Origin: Flavobacteriales bacterium
Lineage (GTDB): Bacteria > Bacteroidota > Bacteroidia > Flavobacteriales > Flavobacteriaceae
Length of the DNA stretch: 64,000 nt
NCBI GenBank assembly: GCA_011524905.1
Contig: WTJI01000039.1
Location: 1 to 64,000 of the forward strand
Direction of reading: 5' to 3'
The translations under genes and the position numbers were made by a program. The notes beneath the pieces were generated by a model. That model was not told the origin of the DNA. It was given only the letters and a program-made list of their open reading frames with translations, and searched no databases. This document shows, piece after piece, positions 2,743 to 62,112 of the stretch. Each line of letters opens with the position of its first letter. The stretch's first letter is position 1.

Positions 2743-3033
2743 TCAGATGATTTCGGCACTTAATCCTGCGTCAAGAAGCGCCTTACATCTAGGTTCAAGG
2801 TCTGTGTAGGGACCTGTTTTAACGGCACATCTACCCGTGTAATGAACCAGAATGGCGCATTGTTCAGCTTGCTGAGGGGTATGCTCGCAAACTTTAATTA
2901 AAACTTCAATGACATGGGTAAAGGTATTTACATCGTCATTATACAATATTATTTCATGCTCTTTTTCCTCAGCCGTTTCAACGACAATCAATTCGTCTGG
3001 TTCAACTGCTGGTTGTTTTTTAGCTTTCAGCAC
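2743..3033 (-). CDS. clpS: ATP-dependent Clp protease adaptor ClpS
   Basis: Small N-degron adaptor that delivers substrates to ClpA/ClpC-type unfoldases. The conserved core EIILYNDDVNTFTHVIEVL, the HTPQQAEQCAILVHYTGRC block and a C-terminal LLDAGLSAEI match the family. The ORF track begins at 3075 inside prmA. I prefer GTG at 3033, which gives 96 residues, the usual size, and only a 14-base overlap with the prmA stop; ATG at 3057 is the alternative. It is the last gene of the tpiA-prmA-clpS group. Confidence 0.88.
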   Translation of the reverse strand: MLKAKKQPAVEPDELIVVETAEEKEHEIILYNDDVNTFTHVIEVLIKVCEHTPQQAEQCAILVHYTGRCAVKTGPYTDLEPRCKALLDAGLSAEII

Positions 3034-3859
3034 GAAAAAGCATGGCGACCCAATCATTTTTTTGTTTTGTAGCAACGTTATTTAGACCCAATGTAGTCAT
3101 TTGCTTCGAAATGGAAGCCACATCCTTTTGATAAAATCCGCTCAATAGTATTCGCCCATTTTCCCTGAGCACCTGCTGGTAAGCTTGCATTTGCTCCAAC
3201 AAAACATTGCGATTGATATTTGCAATAACCCAATCAAATGTCCCCTGATCGCTGGGAACCGTGTCTCTTTGTAAAGCGTTTATATTGTCACAGTGATTGT
3301 GCCGGGCATTTTCAAGCGTGTTTTCAATACACCAAGGTTCTATATCTACCCCCAGAACAGAAGCGGCTCCGAGCAAAGAGGCAGCTATTCCCAATACACC
3401 CGTACCACAACCCATATCCAAAACAGTCCTTTCTCTGACATCATTTTCCAACAAATGGGACAACATCAAGTAGGTCGTTTCATGGTGACCCGTACCGAAG
3501 CTCATTTTAGGGTCTATGATAATTTCCAAGGGATAATCAGCAGCTTCGTGGAATGTGGCACGAACCCGACAACGATTATCTACAACAACAGCTGCAAAGT
3601 CTTTTTCCCACGTTGCGTTCCAGTTTTGGGGTGCAATTGTTTCCTGTGTGAAACTAATTTGAACTTCGGACTTGTGTAATAAGTCCAATTTTTGAACAGC
3701 AGATGATATATTGGCATCGTTCTGAATATAGGCAACTACACCTTTGTTGGTTTCTTCAAAACTTTCAAACCCCAATACTGCCAACTCTGCAATTAGAATT
3801 TCTGTGTAGGGCTGAAGGGGTTCAATCCTAAAATTCAAGGCTGTATAGGGTACGGACAT
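3020..3859 (-). CDS. prmA: Ribosomal protein L11 methyltransferase PrmA
   Basis: SAM-dependent methyltransferase of 279 residues that trimethylates ribosomal protein L11. The N-terminal L11-recognition region is followed by the DPKMSFGTGHHETT signature and the SAM-binding motif VLDMGCGTGVLGIAA; the ANINRNVLL motif matches the N(I/P)-type catalytic segment of PrmA. It starts 4 bases after the tpiA stop and its 3' end overlaps clpS, so the genes are co-transcribed. Cytoplasmic. Confidence 0.93.
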   Translation of the reverse strand: MSVPYTALNFRIEPLQPYTEILIAELAVLGFESFEETNKGVVAYIQNDANISSAVQKLDLLHKSEVQISFTQETIAPQNWNATWEKDFAAVVVDNRCRVRATFHEAADYPLEIIIDPKMSFGTGHHETTYLMLSHLLENDVRERTVLDMGCGTGVLGIAASLLGAASVLGVDIEPWCIENTLENARHNHCDNINALQRDTVPSDQGTFDWVIANINRNVLLEQMQAYQQVLRENGRILLSGFYQKDVASISKQMTTLGLNNVATKQKNDWVAMLFRAES

Positions 3860-3863
3860 AAGA

Positions 3864-4613
3864 TCAAATGGCGTTGACTATTTCCATAAAATCATCGGCG
3901 TCGAGGGCGGCACCCCCAATCAATCCACCATCTACATCAGCTTGTGAAAAGAGCGCTTCGGCATTATTGGGTTTTACGCTCCCACCATATAAAATACTAG
4001 TCTGTGCAGCAATTTGTTCACTACCTTTTTCAGCTAAAAGTGACCGTATAAATGCATGCATTTCTTGGGCCTGCTTTGGACTTGCTGTCTCACCTGTACC
4101 TATGGCCCAAACAGGCTCATAGGCTAGAATGACTTTATCCCAGTCTAGTGCATCAACGTCAAAAAGAGCTTTTTCCAACTGCGCTTGAACCACATCAAAA
4201 TGTTGACCTGACTTTCGGTCGGCTAATTCTTCACCAAAACAAAAAATCATTTCAATACCAGCCAAACTTGCTGCTGCTGTTTTTTCTGCTAAACTGCTAT
4301 TTGTTTCGTTGAAATAGGCACGCCTTTCAGAATGGCCCAATAATGTTGTGTTGACGCCAATACTCTTAAGCATCGACGCCGATACCTCACCCGTATAAGC
4401 ACCCGATTCAGCGGCATGCATATTTTGTGAAACAACACCCAATACAGTACCTTGCGCTTGCTGCGCCAGCCTATCAAGAAAAATCATTGGAGGGGCTATC
4501 ATTACCCTAACATCTGTTGGGAGTTTTCTTTGTAGCAAAGCATCAACTAAAGTTTGGGATGCTGCTGCGTCTTTGTTCATTTTCCAGTTTCCAGCTACTA
4601 TTTTCTGTCTCAT
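3864..4613 (-). CDS. tpiA: Triose-phosphate isomerase
   Basis: Glycolytic enzyme interconverting dihydroxyacetone phosphate and glyceraldehyde 3-phosphate; 249 residues, normal length. Catalytic Lys11 lies in GNWKMN, the electrophilic histidine in LLGHSERR, and the catalytic glutamate in AYEPVWAIGTG with the flexible loop following; the phosphate-binding ILYGGSVKPNN is near the C terminus. It lies 8 bases downstream of the permease gene and 4 bases upstream of prmA. Confidence 0.97.
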   Translation of the reverse strand: MRQKIVAGNWKMNKDAAASQTLVDALLQRKLPTDVRVMIAPPMIFLDRLAQQAQGTVLGVVSQNMHAAESGAYTGEVSASMLKSIGVNTTLLGHSERRAYFNETNSSLAEKTAAASLAGIEMIFCFGEELADRKSGQHFDVVQAQLEKALFDVDALDWDKVILAYEPVWAIGTGETASPKQAQEMHAFIRSLLAEKGSEQIAAQTSILYGGSVKPNNAEALFSQADVDGGLIGGAALDADDFMEIVNAI

Positions 4614-4621
4614 TTTTTTGT

Positions 4622-5698
4622 TTAATTGATTTTAACTTGTGGATCGATTAGGGTGTAGATGAGATCCACAAAAATATTAATTACTATAAATAAAAAGGCG
4701 ATGGTTAAAACGGATCCCATCAAAACAGGTATGTCTAAAAAATTGAGAGCCGTCACAATTTCTTTACCTAGCCCCTTCCACCCAAAAATATATTCAACAA
4801 ATACGGCTCCAGCCAACATCGACGCAAAGTATCCTGATAAAGCGGTGATAACTGGGTTCATTGCATTTTTTAATGCATGGCGAACCAATACTTGTTGCTT
4901 GCTTAGCCCCTTAGCATAAGCTGTTTTGATATACTCTTGCGTATAGACGTCTAAAAGGCTACTGCGGGTAAGCTGGGTAATAACTGCTACAGGTCGAATG
5001 CCCAAAACCAAAGCAGGCAAAATTAGGTTGCTCCATTGTATCTGTCGTCCCATGCCAAAATCGTCTATTTCATAAAAACTTCCTGTCATATTAAGCTGTG
5101 TCCAATCGTGCCACACATAACCAAATAGCCAAGAGAATAGGATGGCGCTCAAAAAAGAGGGCACACTCATACCAAGCGTACTAATAAAAAGGATGGATTG
5201 GTCCCAAAGGGTCTGGTGGTATGTCATCGATAAAACACCTAAAAATATCCCCAAGATTAAGGCTACCGTAATAGCACTCACCGCCAGCACTATCGTGTTG
5301 GGAAGTGTTTCCGCCAATACCGCCGAGACAGCTTTGCCTTGCTTTTGATAAGAGGTTCGTAAGTAAGGCCACTTCAGCACCCATTGCTGTGAAGCAGTCT
5401 GAAGTAAAAGTAACCCGCTGTGCTTTTTAGGGTCAAAGTAATTAAAAGCGTTAGGATCCGTCGAATGGAACGAGAGGGGCGACAAATCATTGATGTAAAA
5501 GGCATATTGCTTGTACATAGGCAGATTAAATCCATATTTTTGTTTAAGTGCAGCCAATTGCTCACTCCCCTCATTTTGATCGAGCATCATTTGTGCGGGA
5601 TCGCCAGGAAGAACGCTAAATATCAAGAATACTAAAGTAGCTACTCCCCATAGAGTAAATAAGCCGTTGGAAATTTTATGCCACAGAAAACGCCCCAT
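4622..5698 (-). CDS. ABC transporter permease, DppB/OppB-like
   Basis: Inner-membrane permease of 358 residues. An N-terminal helix with the FSVLPGDPAQMMLDQ region is followed by a soluble segment and about five further helices. The EAA loop EYIKTAYAKGLSKQQVLVRHALKNAMNPV, which docks the ATPase, identifies a binding-protein-dependent dipeptide/oligopeptide/nickel permease of the DppB type. No DppC, ATPase or substrate-binding protein gene is next to it. It begins exactly where the DUF1599 stop ends (zero-base gap). The substrate cannot be told. Confidence 0.85.
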   Translation of the reverse strand: MGRFLWHKISNGLFTLWGVATLVFLIFSVLPGDPAQMMLDQNEGSEQLAALKQKYGFNLPMYKQYAFYINDLSPLSFHSTDPNAFNYFDPKKHSGLLLLQTASQQWVLKWPYLRTSYQKQGKAVSAVLAETLPNTIVLAVSAITVALILGIFLGVLSMTYHQTLWDQSILFISTLGMSVPSFLSAILFSWLFGYVWHDWTQLNMTGSFYEIDDFGMGRQIQWSNLILPALVLGIRPVAVITQLTRSSLLDVYTQEYIKTAYAKGLSKQQVLVRHALKNAMNPVITALSGYFASMLAGAVFVEYIFGWKGLGKEIVTALNFLDIPVLMGSVLTIAFLFIVINIFVDLIYTLIDPQVKIN

Positions 5699-6280
5699 TT
5701 AGTTTTTGGATTCAAGATGGATCAGCGCAAAAATCGCGTAGTTAATCATATCTTGATAGTTGGCGTCGGTACCTTCACTAACCAATGTTTTCCCATGGTT
5801 GTTTTCAATTTGCTTGACCCGAAGCAGTTTTTGCAAAATCAGATCAGTCAGTGAACTTACCCGCATATCACGCCATGCCTCGCCATAGTCATGATTCTTA
5901 TTTTGCATTAGTTGGTAGGTTTCTTTTATTTTTTGATCATAGGCCGCCAAAGATGCTTCCAAGGACAAGTCTGGTTGCTCAACAGGCCCCATTTCCATTT
6001 GAATCAGTGCCATGACGGAATAATTAACGATTCCAACGAATTCTGCTTCCTGCCCCTCCATTATTTTTTGGTCATCTTTTTGCTGTAAAGAACGGATGCG
6101 TTGCGCCTTTATAAATATCTGGTCTGTCAAAGAGGGTAAACGAAGAATACGCCAGGCGCTCCCATAGTCTTGCATTTTTTTTGAAAAAAGAGAACGACAT
6201 TGGGCAACAACTTGTTTATATTCTGAATCGGTTTGCGTCACAGCTGCTGTATTTTGGCGTAAATTTCGGCAAAATATCAT
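5699..6280 (-). CDS. DUF1599 domain protein, two repeats
   Basis: Protein of unknown function found across Bacteroidetes. Two copies of the same unit are visible: KMQDYGSAWRILRLPSLTDQIFIKAQRIRSLQ and, about 90 residues later, KNHDYGEAWRDMRVSSLTDLILQKLLRVKQIE, each followed by a VNYS/INYA-type helix. The track start at 6382 runs into folP on the other strand. ATG at 6280 gives 193 residues and leaves 37 bases to the folP start. It heads the minus-strand permease-tpiA-prmA-clpS operon. The biochemical role is unknown to me. Confidence 0.85.
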   Translation of the reverse strand: MIFCRNLRQNTAAVTQTDSEYKQVVAQCRSLFSKKMQDYGSAWRILRLPSLTDQIFIKAQRIRSLQQKDDQKIMEGQEAEFVGIVNYSVMALIQMEMGPVEQPDLSLEASLAAYDQKIKETYQLMQNKNHDYGEAWRDMRVSSLTDLILQKLLRVKQIENNHGKTLVSEGTDANYQDMINYAIFALIHLESKN

Positions 6281-6317
6281 AGGGAAAAGCTGAATCTGAA
6301 AAATTTTATTAAAAAGC

Positions 6318-7139
6318 ATGACACTTAACTGCCAAGGCGCAATGATTGACCTCAATACCCCAAGAGTGATGGGCATACTCAATTTGACCCCTGATTCTTT
6401 TTACGATGGAGGCCGATACAATGAAGTGCTATCTGCCCAAAAACAAACAGAAAAAATGATAGAAGATGGGGCGACCTTTATTGACGTAGGTGCGGCTAGT
6501 AGCAAACCGGGCGCCAACATACTCAGTCCGTCCGAAGAAGAAAAACGATTGTTTCCAATCTTAAAAGCATTATTGCGCAGTTTTCCAGATTCATTATTCT
6601 CCATCGACACCTATCACAGCATTACGGCGGAAAAAGCATTAGACATGGGGATAGCTATGATTAATGATATTTCTGGCGGAAATTTGGATACCAATATGTA
6701 CGAAACTGTCGGACGTTTTTCCGTACCCTACGTGTGCATGCACATGCAAGGAAATCCAAAAAATATGCAGAATAAACCCACTTATGATGCGATTATTGAA
6801 GAGCAATTACTTTTCTTCTCAAGAAAAATAAAACAAATCCAAGAAGCTGGTGTTCATGATGTGATTATTGATCCAGGCTTTGGTTTTGGTAAAACTACGG
6901 CCCACAACTTTGAAATTCTGAATGGATTGGAACATTACAATCGGCTTAAAGCTCCTATAATGGTTGGCTTGTCGCGTAAATCTATGATCTATAAAACGCT
7001 GGGTATAACAGCAGTGGAAGCACTCAATGGCACTACTGCTTTACATGTGGTAGCCCTTCAAAAAGGGGCTCATTTACTAAGGGTGCATGATGTTAAAGAA
7101 GCGGTTCAAACCATTGATTTGTTGCAAGCCCTCAATTAG
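6318..7139 (+). CDS. folP: Dihydropteroate synthase
   Basis: Folate synthesis enzyme that condenses p-aminobenzoate with the pterin diphosphate; the target of sulfonamides. 273 residues with the TIM-barrel motifs VMGILNLTPDSFYDGG, FIDVGAASSKPGA, SIDTYHS, INDISGG, DPGFGFGKT and GLSRKSMI in the expected order. ATG 6318 is used; ATG 6342 would also keep the first motif. It is divergent from DUF1599 across a very short gap and 27 bases upstream of cdaA, the usual Bacteroidetes neighbour. A GTP cyclohydrolase (folE) of the same pathway is 12 kb away. Confidence 0.96.
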   Translation: MTLNCQGAMIDLNTPRVMGILNLTPDSFYDGGRYNEVLSAQKQTEKMIEDGATFIDVGAASSKPGANILSPSEEEKRLFPILKALLRSFPDSLFSIDTYHSITAEKALDMGIAMINDISGGNLDTNMYETVGRFSVPYVCMHMQGNPKNMQNKPTYDAIIEEQLLFFSRKIKQIQEAGVHDVIIDPGFGFGKTTAHNFEILNGLEHYNRLKAPIMVGLSRKSMIYKTLGITAVEALNGTTALHVVALQKGAHLLRVHDVKEAVQTIDLLQALN

Positions 7140-7166
7140 TTTGCTATTTTTACCAAAACAGCTTCT

Positions 7167-7958
7167 TTGAATCGATTCGAATTTTTAGAAATTACTTTTA
7201 TCGATGTCCTTGACATCCTCCTTGTTGCTGTTCTTCTTTTTTATTTATATCGGCTCGTTAAGGGTACTGTTGCCATCAATATTTTTGTCGGGATTGTTAT
7301 CATTTATTTGATTTGGAAGCTTACTGATGTGCTCAAAATGGACGTCCTCAGTAATATTTTAGGGAATTTTATCAGTGTTGGATTTTTTGCATTAATTGTA
7401 GTTTTTCAACAAGAAATAAGAAAATTTCTTTTGTTGATTGGTTCGACCAATTTCGCATCAAGACGGAATATTGTTCGATATTTTAATTTTTTAGATCAAC
7501 GGCAAGCACAATTGAGTCAACTCAATTTTGAGGCACTTTTCACTGCCTGCCAAACCATGTCCAAAGACCGAACAGGGGCTATTATCGTTTTGGAACGCAA
7601 CAATAGCCTTGAGTTTTTAAAAGACACGGGGGAGGCAACTCAAATTGAATTAACGCAAGGTATTCTTGAAGCCATCTTTTTTAAAAATGGCCCCCTACAC
7701 GACGGGGCGATTTTGGTTAAAGACAACCAGATTGTTGCTACGCGGGTTATCCTCCCCGTCACAAAAAAAACGGATATTCCTTCGCGCTTTGGATTACGAC
7801 ATCGGGCAGCCATAGGTGTTTCTGAAAAAACAGATGCTGTTGTTTTGGTTTTGTCAGAACAAACGGGCAAACTATCCTATTTTAAAGATGGGGCCCTCGT
7901 ACCCTATAAAGATGTTGAGGCACTCAAAAAAATCTTAGAAGAAGATTTATTACAATAA
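7167..7958 (+). CDS. cdaA: Diadenylate cyclase CdaA (c-di-AMP synthase)
   Basis: Membrane enzyme that makes cyclic di-AMP from two ATP. Three N-terminal transmembrane helices (about residues 10-90) precede the DisA_N cyclase domain with both catalytic motifs: HDGAILV (DGA) and GLRHRAAIG (RHR). 263 residues, usual length. The reading frame opens with TTG (7167); no closer ATG keeps the first helix. It follows folP and no CdaR-like gene follows. Its stop abuts the stop of the convergent ABC transporter with no terminator between them. Confidence 0.95.
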   Translation: MNRFEFLEITFIDVLDILLVAVLLFYLYRLVKGTVAINIFVGIVIIYLIWKLTDVLKMDVLSNILGNFISVGFFALIVVFQQEIRKFLLLIGSTNFASRRNIVRYFNFLDQRQAQLSQLNFEALFTACQTMSKDRTGAIIVLERNNSLEFLKDTGEATQIELTQGILEAIFFKNGPLHDGAILVKDNQIVATRVILPVTKKTDIPSRFGLRHRAAIGVSEKTDAVVLVLSEQTGKLSYFKDGALVPYKDVEALKKILEEDLLQ

Positions 7959-9728
7959 TTAAAGGGCTTCTTGGCTTTCCAAAAATTGGACTTGATGCAA
8001 TTGGGCGTAGTGCCCCTCCTCTATTTTAAGCAGTTCGCTATGGGTTCCTATTTCAACTATTTGTCCCTTTTCCATGACGATGATCCTATCGGCATTTTTG
8101 ATGGTTGCCAGTCGGTGGGCGATGATCAGAGAAGTTTTATTTTGGGTGATCTTTTGGGTAGCTTTTTGAATCAATTCTTCAGAATGAGAATCGATTGAAG
8201 CGGTTGCTTCGTCCAAAACTAAAATACTGGGCTGCGCCATATACGCTCTGAGAAAAGCAATCAATTGTCTTTGCCCTGATGAAAGCATGACGCCCCTTTC
8301 TTTGACATTGTAATGATAACCGCCTGGCAAACTAGCAATAAAATCATGTACACCAATCTCCTGGGCTGCTGCTTTTACATCGGCTTCTGTAATAGCTGGA
8401 TTTTGTAGAGTTATATTCTTAAAGATCGTATCGGCAAATAGAAATACATCTTGTAAGACCACCCCCACATGCTTTCTTAAATTATCTAAGGTATAATCAT
8501 TAATGGAAATGCTATCAATGCTTATTTTTCCAGAATCAATTTCATAAAATCGCGATAGTAAATTGATTAAAGTTGACTTTCCCGCACCCGTAGCACCAAC
8601 AATAGCAACTGTTTCCCCAGGGGCAATGGCTAATGAAACCCCCCGCAGTACTTCTTCGTTCGGCACATATGAAAAGTGTACGTTTTCAAATGTTATAGCC
8701 CCTTGAATCGTTTCTTTTTCGGCGGTTCCTTCATTTATAATCGCTTGCTCGGTTTCCAGAATAGTAAAAATCCGATCAGCTGCCACCATTCCCATCTGTA
8801 GGGTATTGAATTTGTCGGCTATTTGACGCAAAGGGCGAAACAACATTTGAGACATTTGTATGAATAAAAAGATCACCCCAAGCGAAACCGTACCGCCTGT
8901 AGCGACGTTAATCCCGCCATACCACACCAACAATCCAATAGTTATGGAGGCGGATATTTCAGCTACAGGAAAGAATATAGAATTAAACCACACTGTTTTA
9001 AGCCATGCTTTTTTATGTTTGGTATTGATTGCCTCGAAAGCCAAATACTCTTGACGTTCTCTGTGAAAGAGTTGTACGATTTTCATCCCACTTATTCGCT
9101 CTTGAACAAAGGTGTTGAGATTGGCAACTTGCAAGCGAACTTCTTCAAAAGCCTTTTTCATTGATTTTTGAAATTGACGCGTCGCATAAAGAATTACAGG
9201 TAAAACAGAGAAAACAATTAAAGATAACTGCCAATCAACCACGAGCATCACTACGATAACCAGAAGCATTTTCAGTAAATCGGCGATGATCATAAATAGC
9301 CCTTGCGAAAAGATACTCGCAATCGTTTCTATATCGTTCACAGATCGGGTGACCAATCGACCCACGGCCGAGGTGTCAAAATAGCGCATTTTAAAGCCGA
9401 TGATCTTTTCAAAAAGTGTGGTACGCAATTTTTGAATAACGTTTTGTCCCAACCAATTGGCATAGTAAACGAAAATAAACTGAAAAAGTACTTCGAGTAA
9501 CAATGTGAGTAACATAAGTCCCACCAACAATTGCATTCCCTCGAAGTCCTTGGGGGTGATGTAGTCATCCACAGTTACTTTAAGTAAATAGGGCGTCAAT
9601 GTAGAAAAGACTGAAAGTAATATAGCCGATAACATGACAAAATAGAAAACCAACAGATGGGCATTCACAAAATGCATGAGTTTGCCAAACAAGGCACGAT
9701 CAAATATTTTGGAACTCTTTTTGGTCAT
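7959..9728 (-). CDS. ABC exporter, fused permease and ATPase (MsbA/LmrA-like)
   Basis: Half-transporter of 589 residues that should work as a homodimer in the inner membrane. Six N-terminal helices (about residues 20-300) precede the ATPase domain with Walker A GATGAGKST, signature LSSGQRQLI, Walker B ILVLDEATAS and the H-loop IAHRL. The family includes lipid A flippases and multidrug exporters, and the substrate cannot be chosen from sequence. It starts directly after the truA stop on the same strand. Confidence 0.93.
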   Translation of the reverse strand: MTKKSSKIFDRALFGKLMHFVNAHLLVFYFVMLSAILLSVFSTLTPYLLKVTVDDYITPKDFEGMQLLVGLMLLTLLLEVLFQFIFVYYANWLGQNVIQKLRTTLFEKIIGFKMRYFDTSAVGRLVTRSVNDIETIASIFSQGLFMIIADLLKMLLVIVVMLVVDWQLSLIVFSVLPVILYATRQFQKSMKKAFEEVRLQVANLNTFVQERISGMKIVQLFHRERQEYLAFEAINTKHKKAWLKTVWFNSIFFPVAEISASITIGLLVWYGGINVATGGTVSLGVIFLFIQMSQMLFRPLRQIADKFNTLQMGMVAADRIFTILETEQAIINEGTAEKETIQGAITFENVHFSYVPNEEVLRGVSLAIAPGETVAIVGATGAGKSTLINLLSRFYEIDSGKISIDSISINDYTLDNLRKHVGVVLQDVFLFADTIFKNITLQNPAITEADVKAAAQEIGVHDFIASLPGGYHYNVKERGVMLSSGQRQLIAFLRAYMAQPSILVLDEATASIDSHSEELIQKATQKITQNKTSLIIAHRLATIKNADRIIVMEKGQIVEIGTHSELLKIEEGHYAQLHQVQFLESQEAL

Positions 9729-10472
9729 TTACGCGGGCTTGTAGTTTTCTGGATAAACAATATCGGTCAAGTACAGTCCTTGTGCAGGGACCGAAAACCC
9801 TGCTTGGGATCGATCTTTGGAGGCGATGGTTTCGGCTAATGATTCCAATGGTCTTTTTCCTTGTCCTATTTCTATAAGTGTACCAACGATGGCTCGAACC
9901 ATATTACGCAAAAACCGATCGGCACGTATGGTAAAGATAAGTTCATTTTGATGGCTTTCCCAAGCGGCGAAGTCTATTTTACAAAGAAATGTTTTAACAT
10001 CCGTATGGACTTTAGAAAAACACTCAAAATCTTCGAACTGCAATAACATTTGCGCCGCTTTGTTCATTTTATCTACATCCAAAGCCCCTTTCAGATAATA
10101 GTGATAGGGGTATCGGAATGGATCTTTGGTCAAAGAAACATGATATTGATAGGTGCGGGATAGGGCATCAAAACGGGCATGGGCTAGCCGGGGCACTTCA
10201 TAGACCTGTTGAAATGCAATCGCAGTATCAAAATACTGATTGAGAAGGAAAGTGAAGTTCTGGGGTACATTCGCTGGATAGTCAAAATGGGCAACCATAC
10301 ACCTAGCGTGAACGCCAGTATCTGTTCGTCCAGCTGCCGTCAGTACAATAGGGGCTTTTAAAAGGGTCGAAAAGCCCTCTTCCATTGCCTGCTGAACACT
10401 TATTGCATTGGGTTGCTTTTGCCAACCGTGAAAGGACGCCCCATTGTAGGAAAATCGAACAAAATATCGCAA
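9729..10472 (-). CDS. truA: tRNA pseudouridine synthase A
   Basis: Converts U38-U40 of tRNA anticodon arms to pseudouridine. The catalytic aspartate is in AAGRTDTGVHA, with YNGASFHGWQKQPNAISVQQ at the N terminus and FLRNMVRAIVGTL near the C terminus. The track start (ATG 10526) adds 18 non-homologous residues and overlaps the upstream gene. TTG 10472 begins at LRYFVRFSYNG, where family members usually start, and gives 247 residues. ATG 10526 remains possible. Confidence 0.93.
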   Translation of the reverse strand: MRYFVRFSYNGASFHGWQKQPNAISVQQAMEEGFSTLLKAPIVLTAAGRTDTGVHARCMVAHFDYPANVPQNFTFLLNQYFDTAIAFQQVYEVPRLAHARFDALSRTYQYHVSLTKDPFRYPYHYYLKGALDVDKMNKAAQMLLQFEDFECFSKVHTDVKTFLCKIDFAAWESHQNELIFTIRADRFLRNMVRAIVGTLIEIGQGKRPLESLAETIASKDRSQAGFSVPAQGLYLTDIVYPENYKPA

Positions 10473-10497
10473 ACAATTTTTTTTGTAAATATATCGT

Positions 10498-10878
10498 TTA
10501 TTCTGAAAGCTTTTTAAGCGTTTCATTGATAGCTAGAACAACAGCCCTGGCTTCCTTGCGTCTACTGGTATAAAAAACATAAGTGTCTGCACCCATTCGA
10601 TTGACACGCACCACATATAAACACTTTCCATAAAGGACTATACAAATCAAAAAAATAGACATCAAAATAAAACTCAAAACAGGATACAGGGAGGTCTCCA
10701 TTTGATTCAAAACCAGATAAATAAATACTTGCATCAACAAAATAAGAGCCGAAATAAAATAGAATATGTGATTGACCCGTTGAATTTGGGCTGAATAGAT
10801 TTCCTTATAATAAATTTTTCTTTCAATGAATTGCTGATCGACACAAAACACCAGGTGGTTGGACTCCAAGGTCACCAC
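10498..10878 (-). CDS. Small membrane protein of unknown function
   Basis: 126 residues, GTG start. A polar N-terminal segment of about 40 residues precedes two transmembrane helices (near 38-57 and 64-84), then a basic region ending KEARAVVLAINETLKKLSE. The beta-rich ends around two helices resemble a small bacterial PH-like membrane protein, but I do not recognise a named family. It sits upstream of truA on the same strand and divergent from the phosphodiesterase gene. Confidence 0.7.
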   Translation of the reverse strand: MVTLESNHLVFCVDQQFIERKIYYKEIYSAQIQRVNHIFYFISALILLMQVFIYLVLNQMETSLYPVLSFILMSIFLICIVLYGKCLYVVRVNRMGADTYVFYTSRRKEARAVVLAINETLKKLSE

Positions 10879-50329: not shown

Positions 50330-53300
50330 CTACCGCCTTAGGTAAATATAACCTTCGTACATGGATTGTTCGCCGAGTCGAAGACGATAAAAATAGGAAC
50401 CTTCGGGAAGTTCTGTTCCGCTTTTTAGTTGTCCAACATTTGAAAATCCTGGCCAGTCATTCTCATAAAAATCAGTTTGATACACCACCAATCCATACCG
50501 GTTGTAAATAATCAATTCTCGTTTTTGGTAATGTGAGAGCCCTTGAATTTCCCAAACATCATTAATTCCATCTCCGTTGGGAGATATTGCATTAGGGATG
50601 ACCAATGGGTCATAATACAATTGTGTTGTATCGGTGTAAGCGCCTGGATCGCAGGCATCCGCTTTACTTCGATAAAAAACACGAAAGGCAAATCCATCCC
50701 ATTCAGAAGAAGGATTTTCAAATTGTAAACCCGATTCTGTAATGGAAAAAGTAGCTCCGATAGCGGAAATGGACTGCCATTGAGCCGATAAATTTTCAAT
50801 ACTATAATCAATACTAAATTCCCATTCCACTGCTACTTTGTCATCCGCTTCTATGGGAATAACCAAATTGGAGTCCAAAAGAATTGGAAGGGTTTCAACG
50901 GGTAAAGTTACACTGCTAGTCGGTGGTATTTCTAAAAAGTCGAAAACCCCATTGAGATCAGCATCTAAAGGAGAAAAATATCCTACATTATCGATAACCC
51001 TTCCCTCCTCTGACACGCTCAATGGATTGGTTCCCAATCGACCGTCTTCATCAAGATCTTCAAATCCGGCTTCAATAACATCGGCGCACCCATCCCCATC
51101 ACTGTCTAAATCAAGGGCATTCGGAATACCATCAGAATCAATGTCTGCGGTGCCCTCTATGACATCTAATATACCGTCATTGTCATCATCTATATCTATT
51201 GCATCACCTATTCCATCTCCATCTGTATCTAAGATGTCAGGTTCGGGTTCAGGGTCAATAGTATCCGAAACGATGTCTGTTTCACCCCCCTCACCAGTTG
51301 TAGCGCTAGCCACCGTACTTGTTGTTGTACTGCTGGGTGAAGTCGTTCCAGAACTACCACCGCCTGTCGAAGGGCTAGTTGTTGTGGAAGTTGTGGTAGA
51401 ACTGCCGCCACCCGGAGGCGGTGGCGGTGGCGGATCATCATCATCAATTGTTGTTATTGTCACTGTTTGATTCGCCAAAATGGTATACGCAGCAGGTCCC
51501 GTACTAATAGACAAGGTAAGCAGTGTTGTAATATCACCATCATCAAGGGTGTCTGGAACACCCGCTAATATTATCAATTGTGGAATATTCCAATTGAGAG
51601 GTGTGAAAAGTAATTGAGAAACAGTAGTGCTGATTTCTGTTGTATCAGCATTGGTCAAATCGATAATAACATTAGACACGGGTTCGCTTTCTAAAACCAC
51701 TGTAAATGTAGCTGTACTGCTACTGTTTTCAAGGACATTTGAACTGACTGCTGTAACAGTAAATCCTGCGTCATCATCATCCAGGGTCACTACTGCAACA
51801 GATTGAGCGGAAAGTGAAGCAAAAACTGGTGGAGCCGAAGCGACGCTTAAATTGATTAAAGTAGTTACATCACCATCATCGATGGTATCTGAAACACCAG
51901 CCACTGTAACAGTTTGACTCACATTCCAATTGAGTGGTGTAAATAGTAATTGTGTTACTGTCGTGCTAATTTCAGTCAAGTCAGCTATCGAAAGACTGAT
52001 AATAACATTTGAAGTCGGTTCAGCATCCAAAACGACAGAAAAAGTTGCTGTACTACTGCTGGTTTCAAGAACATTTGAACTAATCGCTGAGACCGAGAAA
52101 CCAGCCGTTTCATCATCTAGGATTTGAAGGCTATAGACTATATCTGCCAGAGGATCAAAGCAATCATCACTAAGCACATCGCTTACTGTCAGCGTAAGAC
52201 TAGCTGATACTGTCCCTTCAGCTACACTATCATCTATGGTAATTAGTGTACCAGACTGGGTATTATTCCAATTGAAACTTGTGAACGTGAATTGCGTAGG
52301 GGAAACAGTCAACTGACTGGTCGGGCTAACATTGGCTTCAATCACTACTGTAGAAGAAGGTTGATCTGTTAATGCGATACCAAAAGTAGTACCACTCCCC
52401 CCTTCTGTAAGCGTTAAGGTAGGTGAAACGAGGCTCAGGTTGGCATCTGTAATATATAAATTGGCAGATGCGGAAACAGTGCTACAAATATACTCTGGAA
52501 TACTCACAATAACTCGATAACCCTTGGTATCCATTGATATTGGTGGATTTGTCAAAGTGAGATTGGAAGAAGTTACACCTGAATAAATACCTGTATTGGT
52601 CAAATCAACCCATGTACCGCCATTATCAATTTGCCATTGGTAGGTTGAATTACTGTAACCCGAAGTAACCGAAAAAATAGCATTATCGCCCAGACAGATA
52701 TATTGCGATACAGGGCTTACAACGATACTGGGTGCGGGAGAAACTTCTTGAAAGTCCAATACCCCATTGGAATTGGCATCTGTAGGCGTAGTGTAACCCA
52801 AAGCACTTGTCACTTTACCAAAGGCATCTACAGTTGGTGTACCTGTTCCCAAGGTACCTTCATAAGCACTCCCATCACCTGAGTTCCCATCTACAAGTCC
52901 TGCTTCTAAAACATCATCGCAGCCGTCGCCATCACTATCTATATTTTTATAATCAGGAAAAATACTTACACCTGAATTTTTGTAGTAATATAGTAAAGCT
53001 AATTTTGCAGAAAAATTGGTAGGTGATGCAGCACCCGAAACTTCATGCTTGAAACGAACCTCTTCTATTTCATGCGACCTAAAATAAAACTGCGAAGTAG
53101 AAACTACCCCACTCCATTTGAAGCGAATTTCTTCTGAGGTGAACGATTCTACCCCAGATTCGTATATACCATCATGATCGGTATCAATTAACAATTCGTC
53201 ACCAGGATCAACTACTGTAATTGTTTGTTCTGAATTTGAACCATCAAAAACACTTAGCGTAAATTGTTCTTCCTCAAATCGGGTTTGTGTTCCAGTATTG

Positions 53301-55336
53301 CTTTCCTCCAAATAAAAGTTCATTCTATTAAATAAAGAGGTTGTGTAATCTAAGGTGTAGGTCAATGAATGTATACCTGCAGGAAGTGAAGTGAAAATTG
53401 TTCCACTACCATTCCCTGTTAAGCTTCCAACGCCAGATATTATCGACCCGCTTAGGGTAGTTGCAGTAGTCCCATCACTAAATTGAACAATAGGATTGGT
53501 TAAGCTAGTAAGGTCTAATACAACATCCCCACGTGAGTCTATCGTGTTGATGATTCCATCATTTTCCATATCCAAATCTACATTGTCAATCACAGTATCT
53601 TGATCATAATCTTTAGGGCAAACAGGAACATAAAAAATAGTTGAGGTATAGGTGCTAGAATTGCATGATATGGTACCCCTAACACGATATTGTCTGTAGT
53701 CAGGATCTGCTGTATACGTTGCTGTTGAAGCTACTGACACCCAAGTATCGGTACTGTAATCTAACCCTTCCCATACCAAGACATCGAATGCACTGGCATT
53801 GGCAAGCCCTAAAATCAAATGACCTGAAGTCGAAGAACAATCCCCCTTGCTAGGATCTGTATTGGTGTCAATTTCAATAATGGGTGGATTTTGAAATCCC
53901 GAATAGAATGATCCCGATGTAGCATTATTATTTTGATTGTAATAGGATAAATAGAGTTGTCCTGATGAATTTACACTTACATTCCCATCCAATCCTGTGA
54001 TCTTATAAGTTACATAGCTGGCTTGTCCACTAACAACATTGGGCCCATCAATACTCACACCACCAAGGGTAGAAGAGCTAAAATTGGTGTTTGTGTTATC
54101 TTGGTCTGAGAAGGTCAAGGTGTCACCAACCCCAGCAATAATTGATAGCGTTCCTGTAACAGCATCTGTGCCAATAAACGATATATTGGGGATACTCTCT
54201 ACGTCCTCACTTTCTTCACATACTAAAGGGGGAACAAAAAATAAACTTTGGTTGGCTCCCGTTCCATTAGACACATTTCTAAAAGCATAAACATCTTCTG
54301 AAGTTCGAATATACATATTGTCATTGGAAGTAAATTCAGATTGCTCAATCTCAAAATAATCGCCGGCCATTAGTGTCCTAGTTGCCGTCAGGCTACCATT
54401 TAAAAAAACGTCTGTATTGTCTTGGTCCGCAATAAGTAGCACATTATCAGCTGCCTGTCCACCGCTTGAACTCGGATCACCGATTACAAAAATGTACTCC
54501 CGCCCTATTTTATCAGTTCCAACTATTTGATCTACACCATGATCTCTACCTGAATCATTTCCCATGGTCCCGTTTGAAGATCCAACATTTACTACGATAT
54601 TTTTGTCTGCATCTATTTTAACCCCCAACAAGCCATCTCGATTGTCAGTGGGAAACGTTAAGGATCCATTATCAATTCTAACAGCTAGTATGTAACTTTC
54701 GAATCTGTTCAGATTTATCGTAAAGGAAGACACCCCCAATGGAGCTGAAGCGGAAGCCAATTGTAGTGTTGGGCTAATATTACTAAAAGTCAAAGCGGTA
54801 TCATCTTCGGTTGCCATTACCGAAGTAAAAGTTATGTAGTCCTGAGAAGCTATATTGGCTACTGTGGGATTTGTAAAACCAGCTGTCCGGAAAGAAGTAC
54901 CGAGTGCAGCTGCACCTTTACTGACAAAAGCACCAGCTTGGGCAGGTGGTGTTCCTGTTCCTGCTCGATACCTTAGTGACACAAACACAGGAGCATCTGC
55001 TTCAATATAATAACCTTCGTTGGTAGTTACAGTTCCTGTATCAGTATGCGGTAAAAATAGCTGCGTCGCATAAGCATTACCCAAGGAATAGTTATATGGG
55101 TTTCCATTGGAAACTTGACTCACTATTGCGCTACCAGATGGCTGCCCAATGGGCTGAATAGTAAAAGTAACCATACTTGTGCTCGGAGTGGAAATCCACA
55201 TGTATTGGTCTACAGGTTGAGAATTCCCACCAACAGCCGTAAGCGGCGGGATATAATGAATCTTACTCAGCTGGCCATAACCCGCAGTACCGATTAAAAG
55301 TATAACTACTACAAAAAATTTCCGCCAATAAATCAT
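50330..55336 (-). CDS. Giant T9SS adhesin-like protein with type B C-terminal domain
   Basis: 1668 residues from ATG 55336; the track begins at a TTG two codons earlier. Signal peptide ends TAGYGQ. An IgGFc-binding-like N-terminal region covers about 100-380 ([20 protein letters not shown]). TSP3-type [13 protein letters not shown] and an Ig-like unit follow (about 795-965), then three Calx-beta-like repeats (about 965-1300; the last two closely similar). [19 protein letters not shown] linker, more TSP3 and the type B gliding C-terminal domain [20 protein letters not shown]...GYIYLRR end the protein. Likely a cell-surface adhesin; ligand unknown. Confidence 0.9.
51440..52125 (-). repeat. Two tandem near-identical Calx-beta-like repeats
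   Basis: Two units of about 110 residues share AVSSNVLE(N/T)SSSTATF(T/S)[13 protein letters not shown] and SVDTLDDGD-type blocks and end in DDDD. They point to a recent duplication inside the giant adhesin gene. Boundaries are approximate. Confidence 0.7.
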
Positions 55337-55427
55337 AGTCAATAATCAAAAATACTGATTTGACTACTAAGAGTCCTACACACTGTTTAAATTAAATACT
55401 ATATTTATCAACTAAAATTTGGATCTC

Positions 55428-56333: not shown

Positions 56334-59300
56334 ATGATTCAAAGAATTTTGTTCCTTACCCTTGTTTTGGTGAGCACCACTGTTTTAGGTCAAAATACCT
56401 GTCCAACAAATACTGCTTTTTTTGATCCCGTTACAGCCACTACAGATGCGCCTGTTTCAGTAAGTTTTGACCTTACAAACTTCTTTGCCGATGCCGATGG
56501 TGACGAACTTAGTTTTACTGCCACAAGCAATGACGATAACATTGCAAGTGCTTCATTAGATGGCAGGACATTGACTATCGACACAAAAAGCCAAGATGGT
56601 ACCACTTTTGTAATTTTAACAGCCTCCGATGGTGACGCAAATTGTTTTTCTGGTGCTGAAGTATTTGTGTCTGTTTTACCTGCCATTGACTTGACATTTC
56701 CCGAGGATTTGACAAACCCCGATTCTAACAATGATGATTCTGCCGACAGTAGTACTGATCAAGATATTACATTCCCAGTTGAAGAATCAGGTACTAATGA
56801 CTCCGCTTCGGCTGACTGTCCTGTAATTGCCAACCAACCTGGATCAATTGAACAGGATATTAGTCAAACACTATCCGTTGAGTACAACCTAAATGAATAT
56901 TTTTCTGATCCCAATGGGAATGTGCTTAGCTATAGTTTTGAAACTTTTGGTGACGATATCCTCACTATTAATTTAGATGGCAATTCATTAAAAATTGAAT
57001 CAAATGGAAATGCAGGTTTTGCAACACTATTTGTAGATGCAAGCAATGGGAACGAAGGCTGTTTTTCCTCAATTTCTATCAATGTATTCATTACAGACCC
57101 CAATGACTCTTCGAGCGTGGACGTCTCTGTAGATGATTTATTGCCTGATACAACAACGCCACCAGAAGACTTAATTACAACACCAGATGATACTTTTACA
57201 CCACAAAGCTGTCCAACTGTTTCTGGTGAATTAGGTACGTACGAAAAAACATTGGAAGAAGGTTTGTTCTTAGAGTTCAACCTGAATGATTATTTCAGTG
57301 ACCCAGATGGGGCGCCGTTAACATATTCTTATGATGTTTTTGGAGATAATGTAGTGGATGTAATCATTGATGGGGCTGTTTTAAAAATAGCTTCCAATGG
57401 AAACCCTGGATTTGCTACAATCTTTATTGATGCTAACAATGGGAATGAAGGCTGTTTTTCTTCTACTTCACTTAATGTGTTTTTTATTGATCCCACCAAT
57501 GAAAATATTCCTGATATTTCCATCGATGACTTAATTTCGAATGTTCCTGATCCGCAAGACCTCCCTTTTGGATCCGATGATTCACAAATTGATTTCTCCC
57601 AATGTCCCTTTGTCATCACTGGAATAGAACCCATAATTACTTCGCCTGATGAACCAAAACAAGAAGTGTACGATCTGAAGTTTTTCTTTGGTGACCCCAA
57701 TGATAAAGAATTAACTTTTGAGATAAATAATGCCAATTCCGATATTGTTAACGTAGCATTAGAGGGAAGTGTTTTGACCATTAATACACTTGATAGTACG
57801 GGAGAAAGTTTTATCGAAATCATTGCGACGAATGGCGAAGCTGGCTGTGAAACCTACATCGGATTGTTTGTATTAGTAGCTACTGAAGAGGAAATACCAC
57901 CTCTAACTGAACTTGAAACAACCTTTGATTTATCATCTGAACTTGAAGTCAACCTGTGTCCTGAACCTGTCAAATTCTTTGAACCTATTTCCATCCCCGT
58001 AGGAGAAGTTCAAAACTTTACTTTTGATTTAGATGAGTATTTTTCTGACCCCGAAGGCGACGCATTTGAGTTTGATATTTTTAATGCCAACCCAGAAGTG
58101 GCCTACAGTTCTTTATTCGGTAGTAACCTTACTATTAGCTTGGGTGCCGAAAGTGGCTTTGGATTTATTGTAATTAATGTTGTTGGAGGCGGAAATAATT
58201 GTATTGTAAGTCTAGAAATCCCTTTGGAAGTTACCCAAAGTGAAGATTTTGTTTCCGATTGTGTACCCCTGCTTACAGCCACACCAGAAGTATCTCTTCA
58301 ACTTGACCAGCCCGAAACAATCATAAATTTAGAAGAGTACTTAAATATTGCTGAAGACCGTGTGTTCACCGTTGATATTTTAGGTACTGAAAACGAATAC
58401 ATAGAAGCCAGTTTGTTTGGTTTTAACTTAGTAATTAGTGTTAAAGAAATTGGTGCAGGAGATAGTGCTGTTTATTTGCAAATAAAGGAAGAAACATCGG
58501 GTTGTATGGAAGTCGCTCCTATTTATATTCCCATCGAAGATCCCCTTGGACTTCAAGACACAAATTGCCCTAACCTTAAATTGGAATTCCCCTATTTGGT
58601 GACATTGCAAAAAGGTGAAAGTATTTCATTTGCATACAGCGATTATTTTGCCAATATCGATACTGAGGGAATTGAATTTATTGGAGCGGTTGCTTTTGAA
58701 AGTTTTGCTACTGCAAGTGTAGAAGAAGGCGTTATGACGATTGTGGCCAAAGATCAAGTTGGATTTTCACCAGCAGCTATAGGAGTAACTGATGCCTTTG
58801 GATTATGTGAAATCTACCTCCCGTTTGAATTGCAAATACTTGGAGAAGGGGTCACAGAAAATAGTTGTCCAGAATTGACCGAATCGCTTCCCAACATCGA
58901 AATGAACGACACTGAAGCGGAAGTTAGTATCGACTTAAACACCTATTTTCAAGATCCTGATGGAGATCCTTTGTTTTACGGTGCATTCATTGACTCAAAC
59001 GAATTTGTAGATTTTAACCTCATTGACAATCAGCTAACGCTCTATCTGAAGCAAAATACTGCAGCTGTTGTCACCCTTGAAATTGGTGCTTCCGATGCCT
59101 TTGAAGATTGCTTCACTACAAGTATTCTCGAAATAATAATTGGAACTACTGAAGAAGAAGTGACCAATAATTGCCCAGAAGTTGTGGGAACGATAGACGC
59201 GATTAGTTTTGGAAATGATGAACTTTTGAAAAATATCTCTCTCGAAAGCTTGTTTACCGATGCCGATGGAGATACCCTTACATTAGAGGTTGTTTCTGAC

Positions 59301-61418
59301 AATCCTGAAATAATCAATGCCGAAATACAGGATAATACTTTAACAGTATTCGCCACTCCAGGAAAAACTGGCAATGCTGTATTAGTCGTGTCTGCCAAAG
59401 ACCAAGACCCCTACTGTCAATCAACCTATAATGTGTCAGTAAATATTCCATCCAACGAGCCCGTGGTGCAAAATACATGTCCAACCATTACCAGTGGCAT
59501 TCCTCCAATGCGGGTGGCGAAAAACAGTTCGGATCGGATCATACTGCTTCCTGAACTTTACAGTGACGATGCTCCTGAACTCGTTTACTACTCAACGGTT
59601 AGTTACGATAACAGTGTGGTTACTGCTAATATCGAAGGGAGTTACCTGGTTCTCAACTTCTCTGACACCAATACGGGTAATGCCTTAGTAGAATTAAATA
59701 TTATTGACGGTGGATCAGGTTGTATTCAATACTTAGAATTTCAAGTAGAAATTTTTGAAGAAATTGAAAATCTCCCCCCCTACTTTGAATCGCAAAGTTT
59801 TTCAGTTGAAGAAAATGATTCCGATGAAAATGCAGGTGATTTTGATAAATTTTTAGGTAAAATCACTGCAATTGACCCTGAGGGAAGCCCTGTAAACCTT
59901 TCCATCACTAACGGAAATAATCAAGGTATTTTTGAGCTTCGTGGTGATCAGCTTTTCCTTGTTGGGATTTTAGATTTTGAAACGCAAGAAGTTCACGAGT
60001 TAGAAATAACCGCTTCTGATGGCAATAAATCCAATACGAATGTTGTCAAGGTATTTGTAGAAAATGTAGCAAATGCCAGTATTCAAAAGGGTTTTACATT
60101 ACAGGTATATGATATTGATAATGAAAACACTACAAGTAAATCCAATGCATACAAAAGATTTTTAAATCCCGTTTTACAAAAAACCAGAAAAGGTGTTGGT
60201 AAATGGAAGGTTAGAAAAAATATCACCGGAGGGGCAGACGCTGACAAGTTTAAAATAGAACGAGCAGTCGAACAAAAAGATGGAGAAATCCTTGAGGATC
60301 AGCTTGTATTTGCTATTAACCCAGACTTCGAAAATCCATCAGATGCCAACGGTGATAATATTTATGAAGTTGATATTGAGATAATAAATGAGCAAGATGG
60401 TCAATCACTCATCCCAGTTATTGTAAGTCAAAATGCTATAGTTGTTCCTGAAAATGAACCCAAAGCCTTGAATGTTGAATCCATTCCTGCAACAGTACTT
60501 CAAGACACTGATGGAGACGGAATACAAGATGTTATCGATAACAGCCCTTTACAATTCAACCCTGGTCAAGAAGACAGTGACGGAGATGGCGTTGGAGACG
60601 TATCCGATGATGCTGATCAAGATGGTGTGTGGGATCCATTTGATATTTGTCCTGACACGCCTTATGGTACTCCTGTGAATTTAGATGGCTGTCCCATCTT
60701 CATTTTACCTCCCAATAATTTCACCATTTCAAAAATTGAAAAATGTATCGGTGATAACGAAATCCGTCTGGCAGTTGAAGATACAAGCCACGCTTATAAA
60801 CTAGATTTAACGGGGGAAATAAACAGAACCCAAACCCTACGGGAAGAAAGTGTTAGTTTTACTGGACTTAATGGAGGTGATTATCAACTCTGTATAACAG
60901 TCATTGGTGTTGATGAGGAAGAATTCAAACGATGCTTTGATATATCGATTGCCGAACCTGAACCCCTAACGGTGTATAGCAAAAGTGGCACCACTAAAAA
61001 ACAAGTAAGTTTTGATCTATCAGGCGGCAATACATATAATATTACGCACAATGGCTTCACCAAGCAAATTAATAAAGATCAAGTTACCATTGATTTGGCC
61101 AAAGGGCTCAATACTGTTAGAATAGATACAGGTATTGAATGTCAGGGTGTTTTTGAGCAACAGTATTTTAATTCTGCCGTGGTTATGATGGCTCCCAATC
61201 CAGCTCGTGACCTTACTAGCATTTTTGTTGGTGGTGATGACCCTCAAGTTAACATCACTGTGTATAATACACTTGGAGGTATTCTTTATCAAACTAAAGT
61301 TCGCATACCTCAAGACAGACGTATCACCCTGCCAACTGCGTCGCTACCCGTGGGCAGCTATTACGTCAAAGTTGAAGGACAGACAACCCAACAGAATCTA
61401 GCACTCATCAAAGAATAA
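56334..61418 (+). CDS. Giant T9SS type A substrate with ten Cys-pair Ig/cadherin-like repeats
   Basis: 1694 residues, signal peptide MIQRILFLTLVLVSTTVLGQ. Ten tandem units start with a Cys-Pro-like motif at residues 23, 162, 293, 424, 542, 643, 745, 845, 947 and 1049. Each has a second cysteine 81 residues later (80 in unit 7) and a core like FDLNDYFSDPDGDPLTYS. A cadherin-like domain (about 1145-1245), a TSP3 segment DTDGDGIQDVIDNSPLQFNPGQEDSDGDGVGD (near 1390) and a type A C-terminal domain (APNPARDLTSIFVGG...LPVGSYYVKVEGQ...LALIKE) follow. Only 4 bases separate it from the next gene. An extracellular or surface role is inferred. Confidence 0.88.
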   Translation: MIQRILFLTLVLVSTTVLGQNTCPTNTAFFDPVTATTDAPVSVSFDLTNFFADADGDELSFTATSNDDNIASASLDGRTLTIDTKSQDGTTFVILTASDGDANCFSGAEVFVSVLPAIDLTFPEDLTNPDSNNDDSADSSTDQDITFPVEESGTNDSASADCPVIANQPGSIEQDISQTLSVEYNLNEYFSDPNGNVLSYSFETFGDDILTINLDGNSLKIESNGNAGFATLFVDASNGNEGCFSSISINVFITDPNDSSSVDVSVDDLLPDTTTPPEDLITTPDDTFTPQSCPTVSGELGTYEKTLEEGLFLEFNLNDYFSDPDGAPLTYSYDVFGDNVVDVIIDGAVLKIASNGNPGFATIFIDANNGNEGCFSSTSLNVFFIDPTNENIPDISIDDLISNVPDPQDLPFGSDDSQIDFSQCPFVITGIEPIITSPDEPKQEVYDLKFFFGDPNDKELTFEINNANSDIVNVALEGSVLTINTLDSTGESFIEIIATNGEAGCETYIGLFVLVATEEEIPPLTELETTFDLSSELEVNLCPEPVKFFEPISIPVGEVQNFTFDLDEYFSDPEGDAFEFDIFNANPEVAYSSLFGSNLTISLGAESGFGFIVINVVGGGNNCIVSLEIPLEVTQSEDFVSDCVPLLTATPEVSLQLDQPETIINLEEYLNIAEDRVFTVDILGTENEYIEASLFGFNLVISVKEIGAGDSAVYLQIKEETSGCMEVAPIYIPIEDPLGLQDTNCPNLKLEFPYLVTLQKGESISFAYSDYFANIDTEGIEFIGAVAFESFATASVEEGVMTIVAKDQVGFSPAAIGVTDAFGLCEIYLPFELQILGEGVTENSCPELTESLPNIEMNDTEAEVSIDLNTYFQDPDGDPLFYGAFIDSNEFVDFNLIDNQLTLYLKQNTAAVVTLEIGASDAFEDCFTTSILEIIIGTTEEEVTNNCPEVVGTIDAISFGNDELLKNISLESLFTDADGDTLTLEVVSDNPEIINAEIQDNTLTVFATPGKTGNAVLVVSAKDQDPYCQSTYNVSVNIPSNEPVVQNTCPTITSGIPPMRVAKNSSDRIILLPELYSDDAPELVYYSTVSYDNSVVTANIEGSYLVLNFSDTNTGNALVELNIIDGGSGCIQYLEFQVEIFEEIENLPPYFESQSFSVEENDSDENAGDFDKFLGKITAIDPEGSPVNLSITNGNNQGIFELRGDQLFLVGILDFETQEVHELEITASDGNKSNTNVVKVFVENVANASIQKGFTLQVYDIDNENTTSKSNAYKRFLNPVLQKTRKGVGKWKVRKNITGGADADKFKIERAVEQKDGEILEDQLVFAINPDFENPSDANGDNIYEVDIEIINEQDGQSLIPVIVSQNAIVVPENEPKALNVESIPATVLQDTDGDGIQDVIDNSPLQFNPGQEDSDGDGVGDVSDDADQDGVWDPFDICPDTPYGTPVNLDGCPIFILPPNNFTISKIEKCIGDNEIRLAVEDTSHAYKLDLTGEINRTQTLREESVSFTGLNGGDYQLCITVIGVDEEEFKRCFDISIAEPEPLTVYSKSGTTKKQVSFDLSGGNTYNITHNGFTKQINKDQVTIDLAKGLNTVRIDTGIECQGVFEQQYFNSAVVMMAPNPARDLTSIFVGGDDPQVNITVYNTLGGILYQTKVRIPQDRRITLPTASLPVGSYYVKVEGQTTQQNLALIKE
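56391..59765 (+). repeat. Ten-unit protein repeat array within the T9SS type A gene
   Basis: Unit lengths measured from Cys to Cys are 139, 131, 131, 118, 101, 102, 100, 102 and 102 residues. The extra length in the first four comes from Asp/Ser-rich linkers. Units 2 and 3 are the most alike at DNA level. Confidence 0.85.
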
Positions 61419-61422
61419 GTCT

Positions 61423-62112
61423 ATGAAAAAAATCTATCTATATTATTTTCTACTGACACTCATTGTTGTGCATTGTAGTCAGGAACCTGAACCAGTCCCA
61501 GCGGGTATTGCTACATTAATTGCGCCTGCCAACAATGAAGCTTGTTTAGATGGTACTCCCGTTAGCGATACACAGAGTTCTGTTGATTTTCAATGGAATG
61601 CTGCAACCAATGCTATGAATTATAAATTGATGGTGACCAATTTACTTACCAATCAAACGCAAAACTTTTCATCCGTCACCCCCAACCTGCAGGTTACATT
61701 GGTGCACCAAACACCTTATCAGTGGCAGGTAGAAGCTATGGGTGAACCAGAAACCCTTCCTACCTCAAGTGAAAGCTGGAAATTTTACTTAGCAGCAGAA
61801 GCTCAGACCAACTATGCCCCATTTCCTCCTCAATTGCTGTTACCAGAATCTGCTTCCACTGTCACACCAATCAATGGCTTAATCAACTTAAGTTGGAGTG
61901 CTTCAGACCTTGACAATGATATCGAACGCTTTGAAATCTATTTAGATAATAATGATGGGTCAACCAAATTAAAAGATCAAAGCTACGCTGGTGAAACTAC
62001 AACGATAGAGGTAGATGTTGAAAGCAATCAAATTTACTACTGGCAAATTGTAGCCATAGATAGCTCTGGGAACAGAAGTGATTCTGGCATCTATAACTTC
62101 CGTACACAATAA
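61423..62112 (+). CDS. Probable lipoprotein with two fibronectin-III-like domains
   Basis: 229 residues. The N terminus MKKIYLYYFLLTLIVVHC places a cysteine after a hydrophobic stretch (VVHC, an acceptable but not canonical lipobox), followed by acidic SQEPEPVP. Two Fn3-like units follow: residues about 27-125 (VDFQWNAATNAMNYKLMVTN, YQWQVEAMG) and about 130-229 (INLSWSASDLDNDIERFEIYLD, YYWQIVAIDSSGNRS). It is co-oriented and 4 bases after the giant type A protein, so it is likely a membrane-anchored partner. Function not known. Confidence 0.8.
   Translation: MKKIYLYYFLLTLIVVHCSQEPEPVPAGIATLIAPANNEACLDGTPVSDTQSSVDFQWNAATNAMNYKLMVTNLLTNQTQNFSSVTPNLQVTLVHQTPYQWQVEAMGEPETLPTSSESWKFYLAAEAQTNYAPFPPQLLLPESASTVTPINGLINLSWSASDLDNDIERFEIYLDNNDGSTKLKDQSYAGETTTIEVDVESNQIYYWQIVAIDSSGNRSDSGIYNFRTQ

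Follow-up and report, generated by a model that had tools for sequence, protein, structure and literature searches.

What kind of domain recurs ten times in a giant protein when the copies share little beyond two cysteines about 81 residues apart, and what do these cysteines do? The gene that raises this question lies at positions 56334-61418 (+ strand, as are all features below unless stated otherwise) of the window, by which we mean the whole 64,000-nucleotide stretch of DNA analysed, and its host genome is that of a marine flavobacterium. The product is 1694 amino acids (aa) long and contains 26 cysteines, the first twenty of which fall within aa 1-1130 as ten pairs. A putative signal peptide, read from the translation, spans aa 1-20 (MIQRILFLTLVLVSTTVLGQ; 56334-56393). 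Because Cys23 of the first unit follows this peptide almost directly, the array begins right at the mature N-terminus and a separate head or tip domain is absent.

Beyond the array, a cadherin-like domain without cysteines (aa 1172-1242; 59847-60059) scored 28.6 bits with Pfam Cadherin when its fragment was compared (cut-off of 28.8), with protocadherin-15 as its sequence-based match. This domain is followed by a conserved C-terminal platform region (aa 1243-1388; 60060-60497; VGKWKVRK...GGADA.KF) that is kept in paralogues and orthologues and that found no match in Pfam, and then by thrombospondin type 3 (TSP3) repeats of the calcium-binding type (aa 1390-1443; 60501-60662; PF02412 at 31 bits, cut-off of 25), for which COMP/thrombospondin was the sequence-based match. 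An unnamed domain with four conserved cysteines (1471, 1520, 1534 and 1603; 60711-61187) and no Pfam match over the cut-off separates the TSP3 repeats from the sorting domain. Together with Cys1439 and Cys1453, these are the six cysteines remaining after the array, and their spacing from Cys1439 onward (14, 18, 49, 14 and 69) is identical in genomes G003, G056 and G315 and holds across two genera. The protein ends in a type IX secretion system (T9SS) type A C-terminal sorting domain (aa 1620-1694; 61191-61418 with the stop codon) that scored 23.8 bits with TIGR04183, for which at least 23 is required. A second sorting-domain profile, PF18962, gave 24.8 bits on this domain, below its cut-off of 27, and 36.4 bits on the orthologue in G056. 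The signal-peptide-like start, the downstream domains and the type A sorting domain indicate a secreted and probably surface-bound protein of a member of the Bacteroidota, in agreement with the extracellular location that a sequence-only reading of this DNA had proposed.

The same reading had listed ten cysteine pairs, and every position proved exact. The pairs and the segments that they enclose are Cys23-Cys104 in unit 1 (56400-56645), Cys162-Cys243 in unit 2 (56817-57062), Cys293-Cys374 in unit 3 (57210-57455), Cys424-Cys505 in unit 4 (57603-57848), Cys542-Cys623 in unit 5 (57957-58202), Cys643-Cys724 in unit 6 (58260-58505), Cys745-Cys825 in unit 7 (58566-58808), Cys845-Cys926 in unit 8 (58866-59111), Cys947-Cys1028 in unit 9 (59172-59417) and Cys1049-Cys1130 in unit 10 (59478-59723), with a gap of 80 in unit 7 and of 81 in the nine others. 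When 20 cysteines were placed at random in 1135 residues over 20,000 trials, a spacing of 80-82 was reached by at most three of the ten successive pairs, which rules out chance spacing. The low identity between units and the variable linkers also held up, as pairwise identity averages 25% (range 16-54%), the two cysteines are the only invariant positions in the 105-residue alignment of the ten units, and the distances from each second cysteine to the next first one are 58, 50, 50, 37, 20, 21, 20, 21 and 21 residues in order.

The nearest named relative is the Flavobacteriaceae MAG UBA11891 (G003), the only genome in which the locus search for related arrays found one. Units 4 to 10 are 41-67% identical to their counterparts in G003 (44% for unit 4, 55% for unit 5, 54% for unit 6, 67% for unit 7 and 52% for unit 8) and about 25% identical to other units, demonstrating that the array is old and co-linear. 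In G003, which belongs to the same genus as the window's genome, both cysteines were present in all nine orthologous units seen, spaced 80-82 residues apart, and the shorter gap of 80 recurs in the counterpart of unit 7. With units at 25% identity and co-linear orthologues, a recent repeat expansion and an assembly artefact could both be ruled out. A tblastn search of 50,697 phage records returned no match that would point to a phage origin. The G003 orthologue itself spans two contigs (locus L040 and the start of contig C45), split at a short tandem linker repeat, LTPPTLDVSSTID; this split is probably an assembly break.

To what family the units belong had been answered tentatively with an unnamed extracellular domain. 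The window's own units give that impression, since no single one of them reaches a Pfam cut-off: with Big_9 (PF17963; cut-off of 23.6 bits), unit 1 scored 19.4 bits and unit 9 scored 18.2, no repeat unit matched Cadherin (PF00028), the nearest region being the cadherin-like domain at aa 1172-1242, and NCBIfam had no match within the array. Related units tell otherwise, however. The Big_9 cut-off was passed by the orthologous unit 1 of G003 (26.0 bits), by a Cys-paired unit of genome G142 (36.8 bits) and by a Cys-paired unit on another contig, C43, of the window's own genome (28.4 bits). Furthermore, the ten-unit profile aligned over 92 columns with a profile of Cys-less repeats, whose members include units over the Big_9 cut-off, at an hhalign probability of 98.8% (E of 1.1e-16). 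As judged from these profile comparisons, the ten units are divergent Big_9/cadherin-like repeats of a fold already known, and a separate family of their own is highly improbable.

Their features fit this assignment. The units have the length, the sandwich fold and the tandem use in giant surface proteins of Big_9 and of He_PIG, Cadherin_4 and Cadherin_5, and they share with Big_9-type repeats the pattern DLxxxFxDPDGDxLxY...LTI...G...AxDG; they differ from Big_9 in being divergent enough to fall under its cut-off. An AlphaFold model of unit 1, made with the ten-unit alignment as input, is a seven-stranded sandwich (pLDDT of 93.6 and pTM of 0.82), bearing out the beta-sandwich that had been proposed. 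The best matches among solved structures were the Ig-like domains of GH107 fucoidanases (TM of 0.66-0.68), and protocadherin-15 was also matched. These enzymes, MfFcnA4 and MfFcnA9, also come from a marine flavobacterium. Their Ig-like domains (PDB 6dms, 6dlh and 6dns) accompany an enzyme, whereas the window protein is without a catalytic domain. The EC domains of protocadherin-15, a eukaryotic cadherin, matched the Cys-unit profile in sequence (E of 4.4e-7) as well as in fold, but have no cysteine at the aligned second-Cys site.

Where the models place the cysteines bears on what they might do. In the model of unit 1, the cysteines are residues 4 and 85, directly before the first strand (6-7) and the last strand (86-96), respectively. 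In a second model, comprising units 9 and 10, both cysteines again stand directly before strands A and G. A classical Ig core disulfide between strands B and F is ruled out by these models, as the cysteines lie outside both strands.

We then asked how the cysteine pair is distributed among homologues. A search profile in which the cysteines were masked yielded 61 non-redundant units, of which 42 had both cysteines, 19 had neither and none had only one, the compared units being related and not independent events. The association remained strong (Fisher p of 4.8e-12) even with three units that a script had flagged as carrying one cysteine counted against it. In these three, the cysteine is located past strand G and thus off-site, and three further apparent one-Cys units were incomplete, truncated where a locus or a match ended. 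A phylum-wide search, read at its 29 best loci, gave 63 homologous units, all without a cysteine at either site, which supports the earlier view that ordinary repeats of this kind do not have the pair. The Cys-paired form turned up in g1, g54, g91 and g125, four genera of the family; in g91 and g125 the paired units are scattered along longer proteins, separated by other sequence. Considering the both-or-neither pattern, the phylum-wide units without cysteines and the four genera with the paired form, the pair is most likely a derived, lineage-specific addition, gained or lost as a pair. The orthologue in the more distant genus g54 (G056) has 2964 aa and, by an eye count, about 19 pairs with spacings of about 80-123. 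Set beside the 80-82 of G003, this range makes the near-constant gap of 81 a property of the genus and the pairing itself the deeper one.

Strands A and G of cadherin-like sandwiches lie side by side and run parallel. As the two cysteines come just before these neighbouring strands, they are expected to be adjacent, and an intradomain disulfide in each unit is most likely. For the disulfide clamp of the sequence-only reading, the coupling of the two cysteines is thus supported, and the bond is one that we infer from the sequence pairing and the predicted fold. It seems quite improbable that the cysteines act instead between molecules, joining the proteins into disulfide-linked fibres or sheets, or serve as metal or other ligands. 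In Flavobacterium johnsoniae, envelope proteins are joined to one another by disulfides (PMC12635249), so that intermolecular bonds are in use in the envelope of this phylum, and the window's genome (90% complete) had neither a DsbA (PF01323) nor a VKOR (PF07884) that we could find, which would also suit such a role. Against it, none of the units compared has a cysteine at one site without the other, and the models put the two cysteines where neighbouring terminal strands begin; two cysteines alone also make a poor metal site.

With an intradomain disulfide as the preferred reading, we consider it rather probable that the array is a T9SS-secreted surface structure whose units are stapled by disulfides at the terminal strands A and G, so that 73% of the chain would be protected from being extended. 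In this model, each unit would be a divergent Big_9/cadherin-like sandwich with one added cysteine pair before strands A and G, and the array would form the exposed part of an outer-membrane surface protein secreted by the type IX system. Pulling would act between the free N-terminal end and the membrane-side C-terminal end, and force would pass each unit via the disulfide into strand G, so that the 80-81 residues between paired cysteines would be shielded and the linkers and G strands alone would be extensible. If each pair forms a disulfide, 809 residues lie between paired cysteines and 298 of 1107 residues remain extensible; in units 6 to 10, about 80% of each repeat would be shielded. The expected outcome is a stalk that withstands force and resists unfolding and proteolysis, a force-shielding and surface-adhesion role that we infer from this arrangement. 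Some observations weigh against this model. No DsbA or VKOR turned up that could account for the disulfide itself, although envelope disulfides are formed in F. johnsoniae (PMC12635249). The first four linkers are long, at 37-58 residues from cysteine to cysteine, more than a stiff rod would call for, and the two-unit model had a pTM of 0.47, too low to establish rigidity between units. The stalk role given to the array by the sequence-only reading appears plausible, although a separate tip domain is absent.

There are physical precedents for this model. In adhesin extender domains, the parallel arrangement of the terminal strands is a source of strength (PMC5380327), and a fimbrial Ig-like domain unfolds 10 orders of magnitude more slowly because of its disulfide (PMC5625045). 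A Mobiluncus adhesin has its first and last strands joined by an ester bond (PMC10619420), and the ester-bonded stalk domain of the clostridial Cpe0147 is inextensible above 2 nN, with an engineered disulfide mutant also resisting unfolding (PMC8382745). Like these Gram-positive cross-linked stalks (PMC8382745, PMC10619420), the window array consists of tandem Ig-like domains, and its cysteines are placed where a covalent tie could join first and last strands, but the ties of the Gram-positive stalks are ester or isopeptide bonds, whereas that of the window array would be a disulfide in a T9SS protein. The likeness is one of working principle, as an analogy that implies neither membership nor homology. 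If the model is true, the array would be a natural, T9SS-secreted Gram-negative counterpart of the ester- or isopeptide-locked adhesin stalks, with a second kind of bond at the two terminal strands, where the mechanics are decided, and the staple, if present, would be the natural equivalent of the disulfide engineered into Cpe0147.

Other features of the array would be accommodated by disulfides that confer chemical stability to proteases, heat or low calcium and do not bear load, in an array that forms a ligand-binding surface with a role of its own for each unit. Unit 1 stands at the mature N-terminus with no separate head domain, the linkers that connect units 1 to 5 are long and acidic, and units 6, 7 and 10 have lost the calcium-type DxDGD motif. 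In addition, the identity of 41-67% between orthologous units 4 to 10, compared with a mean of 25% within the protein, implies that each unit position has been conserved separately for longer than the age of the genus, as expected of specialised units. Arrays of about 10 to 19 units in which the cysteines are kept despite the loss of identity fit a structural role instead, and no known ligand-binding family was matched. Considering both sides, we regard this alternative as unlikely and retain the load-bearing staple as the preferred reading.

Only 4 bases past the stop codon of the array gene, a putative partner gene (61423-62112; homologues at loci L039, L042, L085, L090, L092 and L096-L125) encodes a putative lipoprotein of about 229 aa with fn3-like domains, a signal-like N-terminus and a lipobox-like VVHC whose cysteine, Cys18, is invariant in six aligned homologues; the protein had no match over the cut-off in Pfam or NCBIfam. 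At 27 of the best 30 loci of a Flavobacteriaceae-wide search, the lipoprotein gene came immediately after the gene of a T9SS giant whose C-terminus is homologous; two of the other three lay behind another type of protein and one was near a contig end. All four copies in the window's genome are directly behind such giants, and 200 of 400 Flavobacteriaceae genomes had a match to the lipoprotein family at an E of 1e-10 or better.

One of these giants is a 2784-aa paralogue encoded on contig C23 of the same genome (positions 2303-10654 of locus L085), which has its own lipoprotein and a platform 45% identical to that of the window protein, but a wholly different N-terminal part with no Cys-paired units. 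As read from this paralogue, the passenger appears to be exchanged modularly ahead of a common platform. It is possible, and we propose it tentatively, that a two-gene module is widespread in Flavobacteriaceae and consists of a T9SS type A giant, composed of the platform and an exchangeable passenger, and an fn3-like lipoprotein acting as anchor, chaperone or cap, with one lineage using as its passenger an array whose Big_9 units are all naturally stapled between their terminal strands. Gene order is what points to the partnership of giant and lipoprotein.

For type B T9SS cargo, barrel partners have been described (PMC9143113). A type B CTD protein and its PorP/SprF-like anchor (PMC9143113) likewise bring together a T9SS-secreted protein and an outer-membrane partner of its own, but differ from the window pair, which has a type A signal and an fn3-like lipoprotein and no PorP-like barrel. 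The lipoprotein pairing suggests that dedicated outer-membrane partners may exist for type A cargo and not for type B only. Such type A partners would be new for T9SS biology within our limited literature search, which found no report of the pairing of giant and lipoprotein. Pep25/Lbp26 of F. collinsii (PMC9950754) was considered as a precedent for the gene pair and set aside, as no link to the lipoprotein family was found there. The fold is known; what is less familiar in this system is the proposed staple and the conserved lipoprotein gene that accompanies the array gene.

Some proteins carry homologous units with and without the cysteine pair in one chain. As stapled and unstapled homologous units both exist, the effect of the staple on force resistance, protease resistance and calcium dependence is directly testable. 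Loci L086-L089 (in genomes G142, G343, G324 and G108) encode giants in which Cys-paired units (spacing of 79-88) are about 115-120 residues of other sequence apart, and these proteins offer a ready-made set in which to test what the pair does. The genome without a DsbA or VKOR match also encodes a protein with 13 potential disulfides. Upstream of the array gene, on the - strand, the neighbouring gene at 50330-55342 encodes a 1670-aa protein that combines an IgGFc_binding domain with a signal of T9SS type B (CHU_C).
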